A stretch of DNA of 64,000 nucleotides, from assembly GCF_001421965.1 (NCBI RefSeq), contig NZ_LMLP01000001.1, positions 124,001 through 188,000 on the forward strand, written 5' to 3'. Of this stretch, positions 57,256 through 60,631 are shown in pieces. The stretch comes from Sphingomonas sp. Leaf67 (GTDB lineage Bacteria > Pseudomonadota > Alphaproteobacteria > Sphingomonadales > Sphingomonadaceae). The notes beneath the pieces were generated by a model, which searched no databases, was not told the origin of the DNA, and worked only from the letters and a program-made list of their open reading frames with translations. Every line of letters starts with the position of its first letter. The stretch's first letter is position 1. The position numbers and the translations under genes are program-made.

Positions 57256-58488
57256 TCAGCGCGAGGCGAGGCGTTCGGGACGGGCCCAATTCGCCAGTTG
57301 CTCGCCGGCATGGGTACGAACGAAACAGCGTTCGCCCTTTGCCCGTACGCGACCGCACAGCGACGCGGCATCGGCACGGGCGAGACCGCCGACCGACAGC
57401 CGGTAGAAACTGGCGCCACGGACGCTCGCCTGCATACCCTGTGGCGACATTCCGGCAAGCCGGGGTACGTTTCGACTCAAACGCCGCCAGGCGGACCGGG
57501 CAACCGCCGGGGTATCGAACGCGCCAAGCTGCACATAATACCCACCAATGTCACGCGACTTCGGTGCAGCCGCCATGCGGACCGGGCCGATCGAATTGCC
57601 ACGGGGGCGATAATCGCTCGGCAACGCCTGCACGACCTCCTGCCGGGGCGCGAAGGTGATGGCCGGGCGAATGACGGTCGCCACCTGCGTCGGCGCAGCC
57701 ACCGGCTCGTCCATGACCGGCTCGGCCAGAGCGACCGCCACCGGTGCGGCATCGCCCGGTGCCGAAAGTGCCAGCTGCGTCGGTTGTCCCCGATCGACGG
57801 CAGGTGTCACGCCGAGCAACGCCGCGACCTGCTGCGCCGCCGATTGCGGCCGCGCGAAACCCGCCCATTCGACCAGTCGCGCATCGACCTGTTCGGGCGA
57901 CATGTCGACCGACGCAACCGTGCGCGCTTCGACCCAGCGCCCGTCGAGGGCCAGCGCAAGCGCAAGATTTTGTCGCATCGTCGCGGTCGCCGCCGGATCG
58001 CGCGCAGCTTCGCTGAGCAACGCGATACCACCGGCCGGATCACCCGCCAGCGCCAGCGCCAGTCCGCGATCGGCATTTGCGATCCGCGCGGCATGCGCGG
58101 TCAGCGTCACGCGCGCCGCCACCCATTCGCCGGTCGCGGTCTGCGCCAGCGCAAGGTTCAATGCGGCGCGGCCATCGGCCGGGTTCAGCGCCAGCACGTC
58201 GCTGAACGCCTGAGTGGCGGAGGCAAACCGTCCCGCCTGAAGATAGGCCTTGCCCAACAGCGTGCGAAAAGCGGGATCGCGCGGGGCGAGCGAGACCGCT
58301 TGTTCGGCGAAGGTCACGGCTTCGTCGCCGCGCCGCTTCGCGAGCGCCTTGGTCGCCTTGCCCGCCAGCTTCTGCGCCATGTTCTGTTCGGACGATGCCA
58401 CCGCCACGGTGCCGCTGGCGACCAACGCCAGCGAACCGCCGAGCATCGCCGTGGCCAGACCGACCGATATCAGCAGATGGGTCTTCAT
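57256..58488 (-). CDS. TPR protein with C-terminal SPOR domain
   Basis: This 410-residue exported protein has a signal peptide (LISVGLATAMLGGSLALVAS), TPR-like repeats at ~35-200 (EAVTFAEQAVSLAPRDPAF, ATQAFSDVLALNPADGRAAL), a linker, and a SPOR domain (GGYYVQLGAFDTPAVARSAW to the end). SPOR binds denuded septal peptidoglycan. It overlaps the preceding 131-aa gene by 4 bp, in a ParA-led operon, which suggests a cell-division or envelope role. Confidence 0.85.
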   Translation of the reverse strand: MKTHLLISVGLATAMLGGSLALVASGTVAVASSEQNMAQKLAGKATKALAKRRGDEAVTFAEQAVSLAPRDPAFRTLLGKAYLQAGRFASATQAFSDVLALNPADGRAALNLALAQTATGEWVAARVTLTAHAARIANADRGLALALAGDPAGGIALLSEAARDPAATATMRQNLALALALDGRWVEARTVASVDMSPEQVDARLVEWAGFARPQSAAQQVAALLGVTPAVDRGQPTQLALSAPGDAAPVAVALAEPVMDEPVAAPTQVATVIRPAITFAPRQEVVQALPSDYRPRGNSIGPVRMAAAPKSRDIGGYYVQLGAFDTPAVARSAWRRLSRNVPRLAGMSPQGMQASVRGASFYRLSVGGLARADAASLCGRVRAKGERCFVRTHAGEQLANWARPERLASR

Positions 58489-58880
58489 TGCGTGCCCTTT
58501 GCGGCCCCATCGGGGGCAAGGCGCTGAACGAGCGCCGCGATGTCGGAGGTCGACGGGAGGGACCGATCGAGCGCTTCGCGCACGAACGCCTCCGGGGAAA
58601 GGTTGCGTACCGTCGCCGCCAGCCGCAACCGCAACAGCCGGTCGGCATCGAGCGTCAGGACGATCGATCCTTCCCCCGCTGACGGCGCGACCTGGAGCAT
58701 CGCCCGCTCGCGCAGGACGGCCGGAACCGGCGTCGTCGGCTCGCCCAGATCGTTCCAGCCGAGATCGTCACCAGGATCGGTCGCATCGCCGGTCCCGTGC
58801 GGCCGCATCGCCGGACGTGCCTCTCCCTTGCGGGCCAGCAGGCCGGGATTGATCTGCGAAGGGTTGCGTGGTGTGGCCAT
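58485..58880 (-). CDS. Small protein between ParA and SPOR genes, possible RHH C-terminus
   Basis: This 131-residue protein has a disordered N-terminus (NPSQINPGLLARKGEARPAM) and a C-terminal stretch SIVLTLDADRLLRLRLAATV, then NLSPEAFVREALDRSL, which has the strand-helix-helix layout of CopG-like proteins. It is 2 bp after parA and overlaps the SPOR gene. It may be a DNA-binding or adaptor partner of ParA. No family is recognised with certainty. Confidence 0.6.
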   Translation of the reverse strand: MATPRNPSQINPGLLARKGEARPAMRPHGTGDATDPGDDLGWNDLGEPTTPVPAVLRERAMLQVAPSAGEGSIVLTLDADRLLRLRLAATVRNLSPEAFVREALDRSLPSTSDIAALVQRLAPDGAAKGTQ

Positions 58881-58882
58881 GA

Positions 58883-59587
58883 CTAGCCCCGCACCCGACG
58901 GCCAAAGCCCCCGGCAGTACGCGGACCACCCGACAGCGTCGGCACGGCGAACACGGTACGACGGAAATTCTTTTCGAGGCGATCCTGGATATAGTTCCAC
59001 AGCGCCTCGATCTCGGCGCTCGACTTCGACGTCGGATCGATCTCCATGACCGTCCGCCCGTCGACCATCGACGATGCGAAATCGACGCGGTGATGGACCG
59101 TCACCGGCGCGACCGTGCCGTGTTGCGACAGGGCCATCGTTGCCTCTGCCGTGATCTTGGCGCCCGGCGTCGCCGCGTTGACGACGAAGACCAGCGGCTT
59201 GCCGGCACGATCGCACAGGTCGACGGTCGCGCCGACAGCGCGCAGGTCGTGCGGGCTGGGCCGGGTCGGCACCACGATCAGTTCGGAAACCGCGATCACG
59301 CTCTGGATCGCCATCGTGATCGCCGGCGGGGTATCGATCACCGCCAGTTTGAAACCATGTGCGCGCAACGTTTCCAGATCGGCCGCCAGGCGCGCGACCA
59401 GCGTCTGCGCGAACGCCGGTTCGTCGGTGACGCGCGCGTTCCACCAGTCGGCCAGCGACCCTTGCGGATCGATGTCGACCATGACGACCGGACCCGCGCC
59501 CGACCGCTCGGCCTGCACGGCGAGATGCCCGGACAATGTCGTCTTGCCCGATCCCCCCTTTTGCGATGCCACCGCCAGAACGCGCAT
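58883..59587 (-). CDS. ParA-family ATPase (orphan)
   Basis: This 234-residue MinD/ParA ATPase has the deviant Walker A KGGSGKTTLSGHLA, DIDPQGSLADWW and the Walker B-like VIDTPPA. No parB is next to it. ATG 59587 with GGGAG upstream is chosen over GTG 59608, which overlaps the ribosome site. It heads an operon with a 131-aa protein and a SPOR protein. Confidence 0.9.
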   Translation of the reverse strand: MRVLAVASQKGGSGKTTLSGHLAVQAERSGAGPVVMVDIDPQGSLADWWNARVTDEPAFAQTLVARLAADLETLRAHGFKLAVIDTPPAITMAIQSVIAVSELIVVPTRPSPHDLRAVGATVDLCDRAGKPLVFVVNAATPGAKITAEATMALSQHGTVAPVTVHHRVDFASSMVDGRTVMEIDPTSKSSAEIEALWNYIQDRLEKNFRRTVFAVPTLSGGPRTAGGFGRRVRG

Positions 59588-59740
59588 GCCGCTTACGTCT
59601 CCCTTCACTTGCAGCCGGGATTTGCACGGACAGGACTAAAATGCGGTTAACGTCCTGTACGGGATCGACCGATCGCGAAAGCCGTTCCGCCGATCGGCAA
59701 GCGCTGATAATGGACGGCGATGATCGCAAGGGGGACTTGG

Positions 59741-60631
59741 ATGCGCGGTGCGATGGGGGCGGCTCTGGCGGCGGCAATGCTGGCGGCACCGGCGTTTGCC
59801 GATGTGAAGGCCGGGGTCGAGGCATGGGCGCGGGGCGACTGGACGACGGCGGTCGGCGAATGGCGCGAGCCGGCGGTCGCGGGCGATGCCGATGCCCAGT
59901 TCAATCTGGGGCAGGCGTACAAGCTCGGTCGTGGCGTGCCGATGAACCTGACCGAAGCCGAACAATGGTATGCCCGCGCTGCGCAACAGGGGCACCGGCA
60001 GGCCGAGGAAAATTACGGCCTGATCCTGTTCCAGAACGGCAAGCGCCCCGAAGCCGTCCAATGGCTCGAAAAATCGGCAAACCGCGGCGAAGCGAGAAAC
60101 CAGTTCGTCCTCGGCACGATGCTCTTCAACGGTGACGCCGTGCCGAAGGACTGGCGGCGCGCCTATGCGTTGATGACGCGCGCGTCGTCGGCGGGATTGC
60201 CGCAGGCGGCGGCGACGCTGGCGCAGATGGACCGGTATGTTCCGCTGCCCGACCGGCAGGCGGCGCTGGCGATGGCGCGCGATCTGGAGCGGGGTGCCGG
60301 ACGCCCCTCCCTGCCCGCCGCGCCCGAGGCGGCAAAGGCCACTCAGATTGCCAAGGCTCCCCCCGCCCCCAAGCCGGTCCCTCGCACCGCTCCGTCGGCG
60401 TCGTCGGTTGCCGCGGGTAACTGGCGGGTGCAGCTCGGCGCGTTCCGCGATGCGGGCAATGCGCGGCGGCTGTGGACCGAAGTCGCGGGACAGTTCGCCG
60501 GTCGCCAGCCCTTTTACGACGATGCCGGCGGCGTCACCCGGTTGCAGATCGGCCCGTTTGCCAGCAGTGCCGAGGCGAGCCGCGCCTGTGCCACGATCCG
60601 CCCGACGACCTGCGTCCCGGTAAAGCGGTGA
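59741..60631 (+). CDS. Sel1-repeat protein with SPOR domain
   Basis: This 296-residue exported protein has a signal peptide (GAMGAALAAAMLAAPAFA), Sel1-like repeats at ~25-170 (DADAQFNLGQAYKLGRGVPM, EAEQWYARAAQQGHRQAEEN), a Pro/Ala linker, and a C-terminal SPOR domain (NWRVQLGAFRDAGNARRLW). AAGGGGGAC precedes ATG 59741. It is divergent from the ParA operon, 153 bp away, so the two SPOR genes may be co-regulated. Confidence 0.85.
   Translation: MRGAMGAALAAAMLAAPAFADVKAGVEAWARGDWTTAVGEWREPAVAGDADAQFNLGQAYKLGRGVPMNLTEAEQWYARAAQQGHRQAEENYGLILFQNGKRPEAVQWLEKSANRGEARNQFVLGTMLFNGDAVPKDWRRAYALMTRASSAGLPQAAATLAQMDRYVPLPDRQAALAMARDLERGAGRPSLPAAPEAAKATQIAKAPPAPKPVPRTAPSASSVAAGNWRVQLGAFRDAGNARRLWTEVAGQFAGRQPFYDDAGGVTRLQIGPFASSAEASRACATIRPTTCVPVKR

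Follow-up and report, generated by a model that had tools for sequence, protein, structure and literature searches.

A chromosomal ParA-RHH pair of plasmid type kept beside SPOR-domain genes in Sphingomonadaceae, and SPOR-fused partners of its relatives

Described ParA systems and the Leaf67 locus

The closest described system to the one considered here is the ParF/ParG pair of TP228, in which a ParA ATPase without a helix-turn-helix (HTH) is followed by a small protein having a flexible N-terminal tail and a C-terminal ribbon-helix-helix (RHH) domain (PMC7308502). A pair of the same build is found in a 64,000-nucleotide stretch of Sphingomonas sp. Leaf67 (contig NZ_LMLP01000001.1, positions 124,001 to 188,000; hereafter, the window), where parA, the gene of a 131-amino-acid (aa) protein and a TPR-SPOR gene follow each other on the minus strand and a Sel1-SPOR gene diverges from them, ParF/ParG being among the best PDB matches. 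Unlike TP228, this pair is chromosomal, shows no parH-like array, possesses a tail motif of its own (LLARKGxAxPAMR), stands linked to SPOR genes and has relatives whose partners are fused to SPOR domains. Its genes mark it as a partition cassette of plasmid type (type Ib, ParF/ParG-like) that Sphingomonadaceae keep in the chromosome at a constant place, as plasmid cassettes carry a related ParA and, in four of the six read, a clearly motif-bearing partner. Moreover, ParA and predicted septal-glycan binding form a recurrent association, since fused proteins consisting of the motif, a transmembrane (TM) segment and a SPOR domain follow parA at 9/54 loci outside the family, compared to 0/20 control loci.

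Other described systems share part of these features. Archaeal SegA/SegB is also a chromosomal ParA with an RHH partner (PMC9178275), and McdAB and other cargo-positioning ParA/MinD systems likewise combine a dedicated ParA with a partner connecting it to the cargo (PMC10241942). Regarding the SPOR-fused adaptors, HubP/FimV is alike in that it binds peptidoglycan by a periplasmic domain, spans the membrane and organises polar systems through its cytosolic part (PMC12918733), whereas FtsN-like SPOR proteins, such as RgsS, are alike in their periplasmic C-terminal SPOR domain at the septum and growth pole (PMC7822825). However, SegA/SegB belongs to another domain of life, and in the present genome the pair occurs together with another ParA that has a ParB gene next to it; the cargo of McdAB is the carboxysome; and HubP/FimV carries LysM instead of SPOR, with a long acidic cytosolic domain in place of the short N-terminal motif. 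In addition, McdB is not known to be an RHH protein, HubP binds ParA1, and FtsN-like SPOR proteins have a cytosolic tail and a TM segment. To our knowledge, SegA/SegB has no SPOR link, HubP/FimV is not encoded beside a dedicated ParA, and FtsN-like SPOR proteins have neither a ParA-linked N-terminal motif nor an adjoining ParA.

A literature search over titles and the starts of abstracts, in which most subscription papers and bioRxiv were not covered, returned no description of the operon, the tail-motif family, its fixation beside SPOR genes or the ParA-linked motif-TM-SPOR adaptors, and a paper on Zymomonas genetics (PMC10746277) contains neither "ParA" nor "SPOR" as a whole word. The core pair is of a known kind, type Ib partition; any novelty would lie in the tail-motif family, in its stable SPOR neighbours and chiefly in the motif-TM-SPOR fusions, the fused adaptors possibly holding the larger story. 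The coordination of nucleoid position and septal wall synthesis is an open question in most Alphaproteobacteria. A dedicated ParA with a partner motif joined to a SPOR domain that binds septal glycan would connect these two processes at the molecular level, in a form concrete enough to be tested. If true, a plasmid stability cassette would have been repurposed as a cell-organising device, and the sequence of a short motif would suffice to predict what a ParA carries.

The ParA and its motif-bearing RHH partner

The four genes lie where the first-pass annotation had placed them, and the tight packing that it described was borne out: parA (58883..59608, minus strand) is separated by 2 bp from the gene of the 131-aa protein (58485..58880, minus strand), which overlaps the TPR-SPOR gene (57256..58488, minus strand) by 4 bp, and the divergent Sel1-SPOR gene occupies 59720..60631 on the plus strand. 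The start of parA is probably the ATG at 59587 (MRVLAVASQKGG), because most homologs in the ortholog alignment begin there.

Two traits of type Ib partition are present, namely a short ParA lacking the N-terminal HTH, as seen by Pfam and PDB matches, and a small RHH partner directly downstream. The ATPase is ParF-like by its Pfam and PDB matches and by the ortholog alignment, matching AAA_31 (Pfam, 4.6e-13) and having ParA/ParF partition proteins as its best PDB matches, with a deviant Walker A motif, KGGSGKTT, and a P-loop about 10 residues past the likely start. The residues S118 and D121 (PSPHD), both invariant in 25 rows, are the aligned counterparts of Ser108 and Asp111 in ParF. Pfam MipZ is also matched, at 25.4 bits (cut-off 20.7); AAA_31 scores higher, no ParB gene adjoins and the partner is an RHH protein. 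For ParAs of the ParF-like kind, an RHH protein is the usual counterpart of ParB. The earlier description of a ParA "without ParB" is right as to the absence of an adjoining ParB gene, and has to be qualified in that the small RHH neighbour is the usual equivalent. The sole ParB_N match of the genome adjoins another ParA, at G000:C12 (G, C and L are our labels for genomes, contigs and loci). A second ParF-like ParA of the same genome (L333, G000:C20:277258-277878), with 35% identity, lies outside the clade.

At E<1e-90, the ParA is found in 113/148 family genomes, with 73-82% identity except for the window's own copy and that of G094 (63%). Among named records, parA stands beside the small gene in 79/80 loci, more than expected by chance, these loci being the best 80 of at least 458 confirmed, skewed to near relatives and most, not all, titled Sphingomonadaceae; at the remaining one, L201, only 53 bases separate the match from the contig edge. 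Sphingomonas sp. Leaf22 is the closest named relative among the matches listed, its 131-aa protein having 95% identity. A selfish or vestigial plasmid remnant, without function for the cell, could be seen in the absence of this ParA from about a quarter of the family genomes at the same threshold and of any parA match between the SPOR genes of four genomes. Such a remnant is nevertheless very improbable considering the preserved ParA identity in all but G094, the catalytic residues invariant in the 25 rows and the conservation of locus and partner together.

Searched alone, the 131-aa protein has no match in Pfam, NCBIfam or PDB. Its orthologs, with a total length from 127 to 505 aa, share a build of FASLxxxLLARKGxAxPAMRPQ, EDLGWNDMG, a variable linker and AFTLRLDxxRHLKLRLAxxxxxRSAQQLVTEALD. 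Among 29 orthologs, Pfam at E up to 1 gives Antitox_RHH in 14, RHH_10 in 13 and ParG in 7, and none of these families in the window's own copy, whilst the family profile has only two matches in PDB at E<=10, both RHH and weak (SvtR/56B, E 0.027; ParG, E 0.44). In the AlphaFold model, residues 71-110 have a block-mean pLDDT of 84-96 and align mostly to RHH proteins (CopG, Arc, PutA and others) with a top Z of 6.3, middling for that tool; Foldseek matches are weak (best E 0.63; ParG at E 1.1), the RHH region alone being interpretable. Taken together, the ortholog Pfam matches, the weak profile matches and the predicted fold bear out the "CopG-like end" of the first-pass annotation and point to a ParG-like partner, with an N-terminal motif, a variable linker and a C-terminal RHH domain at about residues 70-110 (58551..58673, minus strand). 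The T and R of the RHH strand, which we take to be DNA contacts from what is known of CopG, are kept in 63/79 loci, while 6 differ and 10 misfit the pattern.

The N-terminal motif of this partner, GLLARKGEARPAMR (residues 13-26; 58803..58844, minus strand), is proposed to be a tail that docks on ParA and activates its ATPase. Its positions L14-G19, A21, P23 and A24 are invariant in 29 rows, and the window copy scores 19.2 bits. ParG binds ParF through residues 8-22 of its tail, which also contains an arginine-finger-like motif (PMC7308502); from the comparable place of the window motif, we infer docking by the same route. A second conserved motif, DDLGWNDLG (residues 38-46; 58743..58769, minus strand), was recognised by eye only in the Sphingomonadaceae members read, and was not seen in the outside proteins compared. 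Across 59 family genomes, the N-terminal motif (E<1e-6) and the ParA (E<1e-90) co-occur perfectly, both in 41 and neither in 18; therefore, the ParA and its 131-aa partner behave as one unit. Each of the 41/59 genomes has a single such motif, located with parA, the other matches listed in Sphingomonadaceae having E of 0.009 or worse.

SPOR domains beside and within the partners

Both flanking proteins exceed the Pfam SPOR cut-off of 21 (43 and 58 bits). The TPR-SPOR protein matches TPR_19 (1.4e-12) and SPOR (5.7e-11), the latter domain covering residues 315-392 (57313..57546, minus strand), and the Sel1-SPOR protein matches Sel1 (9.2e-17) and SPOR (1.2e-15), with the SPOR domain at residues 232-294 (60413..60601, plus strand). 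Conservation of the four-gene set, which the first-pass annotation had put forward as a check, was found in large part: the TPR-SPOR gene lies downstream in 79/79 parA-bearing loci of the named records, and the Sel1-SPOR gene diverges upstream, within 4 kb, in 71/79, although five genomes keep the SPOR pair without a parA match. A further 20 loci, the window's included, gave TPR-SPOR in 19 and Sel1-SPOR in 14, with neither at L053. In the 59 genomes, TPR-SPOR adjoins parA in all 41 parA-positive ones, Sel1-SPOR not being found in five of these (G010, G052, G053, G055 and G058). The SPOR link is real, not obligatory. Four parA-negative genomes with a TPR-SPOR match (L270-L273) retain the Sel1-SPOR and TPR-SPOR genes in the usual position and divergent layout, and the sequence between these genes matches neither parA nor the small gene.

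One further locus, L269 (G008), carries the SPOR pair with an RHH-type frame and no parA match between the two genes, in a genome without a strong N-motif match, and is possibly a decaying intermediate.

The TPR-SPOR protein was also considered as FtsN and rejected: it scores 45.8 bits vs 300 for NCBIfam Caulobacter FtsN, and the FtsN candidate lies elsewhere, at G000:C19:115617. The candidate is a SPOR protein of 243 aa that possesses a TM-like segment and is flanked by an argS-like and a nagZ-like gene, both recognised by eye. The gene order argS-ftsN-nagZ and a cytosolic tail with a TM segment serve to recognise FtsN.

Outside the family, ParAs of the same clade (E<1e-70) occur in 46/380 alphaproteobacterial genomes, of which nine hold two or three copies. 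Here, "clade" stands for a gap in match strength, 6e-66 vs 7e-47, and the plasmid ParAs listed, with 54-63% identity, lie within that range too. The downstream sequence was read at 57 loci (56 above the E line plus G304), of which L278, L296 and L302 were excluded because their sequence stops at parA or close to it, leaving 54; those retained include L310, L297 and L220, with only 1.0, 1.7 and 2.0 kb after parA, and L304 (47% identity), possibly outside the clade. According to our own hidden Markov models (HMMs), the partner after parA is of RHH type at 40 of the 54 loci, of SPOR type at nine (L276, L280, L281, L282, L283, L284, L287, L291 and L292) and of neither type at five (L275, L277, L286, L293 and L304). 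The nine SPOR-type proteins share one build, with the motif (31-41 bits), a hydrophobic segment (mean hydropathy 1.96-2.71) and a C-terminal SPOR domain, which exceeds the Pfam cut-off in eight (E 5e-7 to 8e-15), the call at L287 being that of our own HMM alone. Meanwhile, none of the 40 RHH-type proteins has a hydrophobic segment (hydropathy >=1.6).

As controls, 20 of 28 weaker ParA places were used (33-43% identity; four with less than 1.8 kb after parA), none having a SPOR gene downstream and four giving RHH matches, at E 4e-8 to 7e-3. Five genomes (G157, G270, G290, G354 and G373) hold one RHH-type and one SPOR-type copy each. The SPOR-type ParAs need two label changes in each of two trees, and they may have a single origin.

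The motif scores above 8 bits in 44/49 outside RHH- and SPOR-type partners, already so in the first pass from six seed windows, compared to maxima of 5.9 bits in shuffled sequences and 8.8 bits at control loci; the motif matrix and the RHH HMM were refined on the outside loci that they scored, and the SPOR HMM was seeded with 3/9 of the SPOR-type proteins. The motif looks like a portable hook for ParA, attached to either DNA binders or septal-glycan sensors. Beside parAs of the clade, it is also carried at L275, L286 and L293, and by a short L303 frame. A score of 9.3 bits is reached by one unrelated frame, at L287.

At L276, about 815-1478 bp after parA and adjoining the SPOR-type adaptor, a receiver-domain protein starts with the motif-like SPSLSLFARKGAAS (16.8 bits); it matches Pfam Response_reg at 1.6e-25 and is DivK-like by eye. 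A third gene recurs after parA in 7/20 outside loci (L209, L210, L212, L213, L215, L218 and L222; cluster 5), with no Pfam match above the cut-off in the two scanned. We take these genes to be PAS-like (PAS_5-like by eye), and some of them start with an ASLxRIxVRKP-like stretch. As motif carriers, the PAS-like genes find no support, the best third genes of this kind having 8.5 bits at L225 and 6.4 at L301, below the control maximum, and those at L210 and L220 having -2.0.

Origin, proposed action and regulation

The plasmid collection contains 55 records with the ParA at E<=1e-40, and the 30 listed show 54-63% identity, 28 of them being smaller than 63 kb. Six plasmid cassettes were read: the small gene after parA carries the motif at 22-32 bits in those of Comamonas, Deefgea, Methylomonas and Thiothrix, whose partners have an RHH-like end by eye, while the Xanthomonas partner has 7.0 bits, inside the control range, and the Lichenicola partner -5.4 bits by an ungapped score, a similar stretch being visible. 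The SPOR-type protein is matched in 15 plasmid records, in the SPOR domain only, with 24% cover. In one tree, the 12 Sphingomonadaceae ParAs included fall together in a single group, at modest support (96/62; 64 in a second tree, which omits L279, L304, L315, L316, L317 and L319), and the direction, from plasmid to chromosome or the reverse, is not settled by either tree. As the ParA-RHH pair alone is a plasmid-type cassette, the core is not of a wholly new kind.

It is reasonably probable that a type Ib partition pair has become fixed in the chromosome and positions a cargo held by the RHH protein. ParA-ATP dimers would coat the nucleoid, and the RHH protein would dimerise through its C-terminal domain, leaving the N-terminal tail free. 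By analogy with ParF/ParG, this tail (LLARKGxAxPAMR) would dock on ParA and trigger ATP hydrolysis, and ParA gradients would form and position whatever the RHH domain holds, the other domain of the partner deciding the cargo. More weakly, the pair may work in step with envelope constriction in Sphingomonadaceae, because SPOR genes recur beside it in two ways, linked here and as fused adaptors elsewhere. A cargo at the septum or envelope appears more likely than chance from the SPOR neighbours and SPOR-fused relatives, and DNA may remain in play as cargo, considering the plasmid ancestry and the RHH domain.

A broader proposal is offered tentatively, with confidence somewhat short of even: the plasmid cassette, domesticated in Alphaproteobacteria, would be a plug-in positioning system, whose hook (ASLxxxLLxRKGxA) is carried by RHH, TM-SPOR and receiver proteins and perhaps by further ones. 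In its SPOR-fused form, the hook would reach through the membrane and tie ParA on the nucleoid to denuded septal glycan, so that chromosome position and wall constriction would be physically coupled. In Sphingomonadaceae, the ParA-RHH pair and the separate, apparently exported SPOR proteins would each provide one half of such a coupling. The first-pass idea of an uncharacterised system placing division or envelope complexes survives in the widely conserved gene set and in the nine fused proteins set against the empty controls, and it loses the unity of the four genes and the wholly new core.

Several results weigh against the proposed positioning pair or against the four genes as a single system. 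The 40/54 outside loci with an RHH partner have no SPOR gene within 2.6 kb downstream (less where the contig ends), and 5/49 outside partners and 2/6 plasmid partners stay below 8 bits for the motif. In the family, TPR-SPOR matches occur in 11/18 parA-negative genomes, some through the SPOR domain alone, and five genomes retain the SPOR pair at one locus where parA has no match. The window's two SPOR proteins each begin with a hydrophobic, signal-peptide-like segment and lack the motif; they look exported and, therefore, should not be held by ParA directly. The T and R of the RHH strand are replaced in the window and its nearest relatives (by V and T in the window and Leaf22), so strict DNA recognition would be weakened in this lineage. 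No centromere-like array of tandem or direct repeats was found at parA, where degenerate short boxes could be missed. Finally, the ParA scores 163.4 bits for NCBIfam ParA_partition (NF041546), below its cut-off of 180, this cut-off being a naming threshold and no defining trait of type Ib.

Part of these results would suit a second DNA-segregation system, where the RHH protein binds chromosomal sites, ParA helps to move that DNA and the SPOR genes are mere long-standing neighbours. The cassette is indeed that of plasmids, most outside loci have an RHH partner without SPOR, the SPOR pair is separable from parA in the five genomes, and archaeal SegAB is a ParA and RHH pair for chromosome segregation (PMC9178275, PMC12284271). 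We nonetheless regard this explanation as rather unlikely, as the locus has no repeat array, the genome already possesses a ParA beside a ParB gene, the RHH strand residues are altered in the window clade, and the SPOR-fused adaptors are left unexplained.

Regarding regulation, a conserved element lies upstream of parA (59617..59651, minus strand), reading GTTAACC-N5-TTA and then a TGxxAT(CC)-like stretch, about 60-100 bp before most parA starts. It is CtrA-box-like: at least 7/8 letters of TTAA-N7-TTAA are present in 71/77 upstream regions, compared to 3.6% of shuffles, and the CtrA consensus in Hyphomonas is TTAA-N7-TTAAC (PMC7200025). The genome of the window shows no enrichment of the exact patterns (3 vs 4 control matches, for each of two patterns), and the element is not evident at outside loci, where the best match is 7/8 in 5/20; CtrA control of parA is accordingly no more than a lead, and CtrA identity is not claimed for the element.

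The strong conservation of this element could also indicate that the RHH protein serves chiefly to control transcription from the divergent parA and Sel1-SPOR promoters, with ParA as co-regulator, so that co-regulation would explain the linkage, as ParG also represses its own operon (PMC7308502). This account is improbable, since the element resembles a CtrA box more than an RHH operator array and is not evident at the outside loci that bear RHH partners. Instead, a positioning pair whose cargo is set by the partner is the reading that we prefer.

From left to right, the window order is pyrC (+), TPR-SPOR (-), the 131-aa gene (-), parA (-), Sel1-SPOR (+), serB (-) and miaA (+), the names pyrC, serB and miaA being assigned by eye. 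Both SPOR genes encode a signal-peptide-like N-terminus. At L285 and L286, a MucR/Ros-like regulator gene, recognised by eye, follows the pair of ParA and partner. In a family genome of 2.1 Mb, 20 Sel1-type matches are spread along one contig (G024:C7), an unusual expansion.

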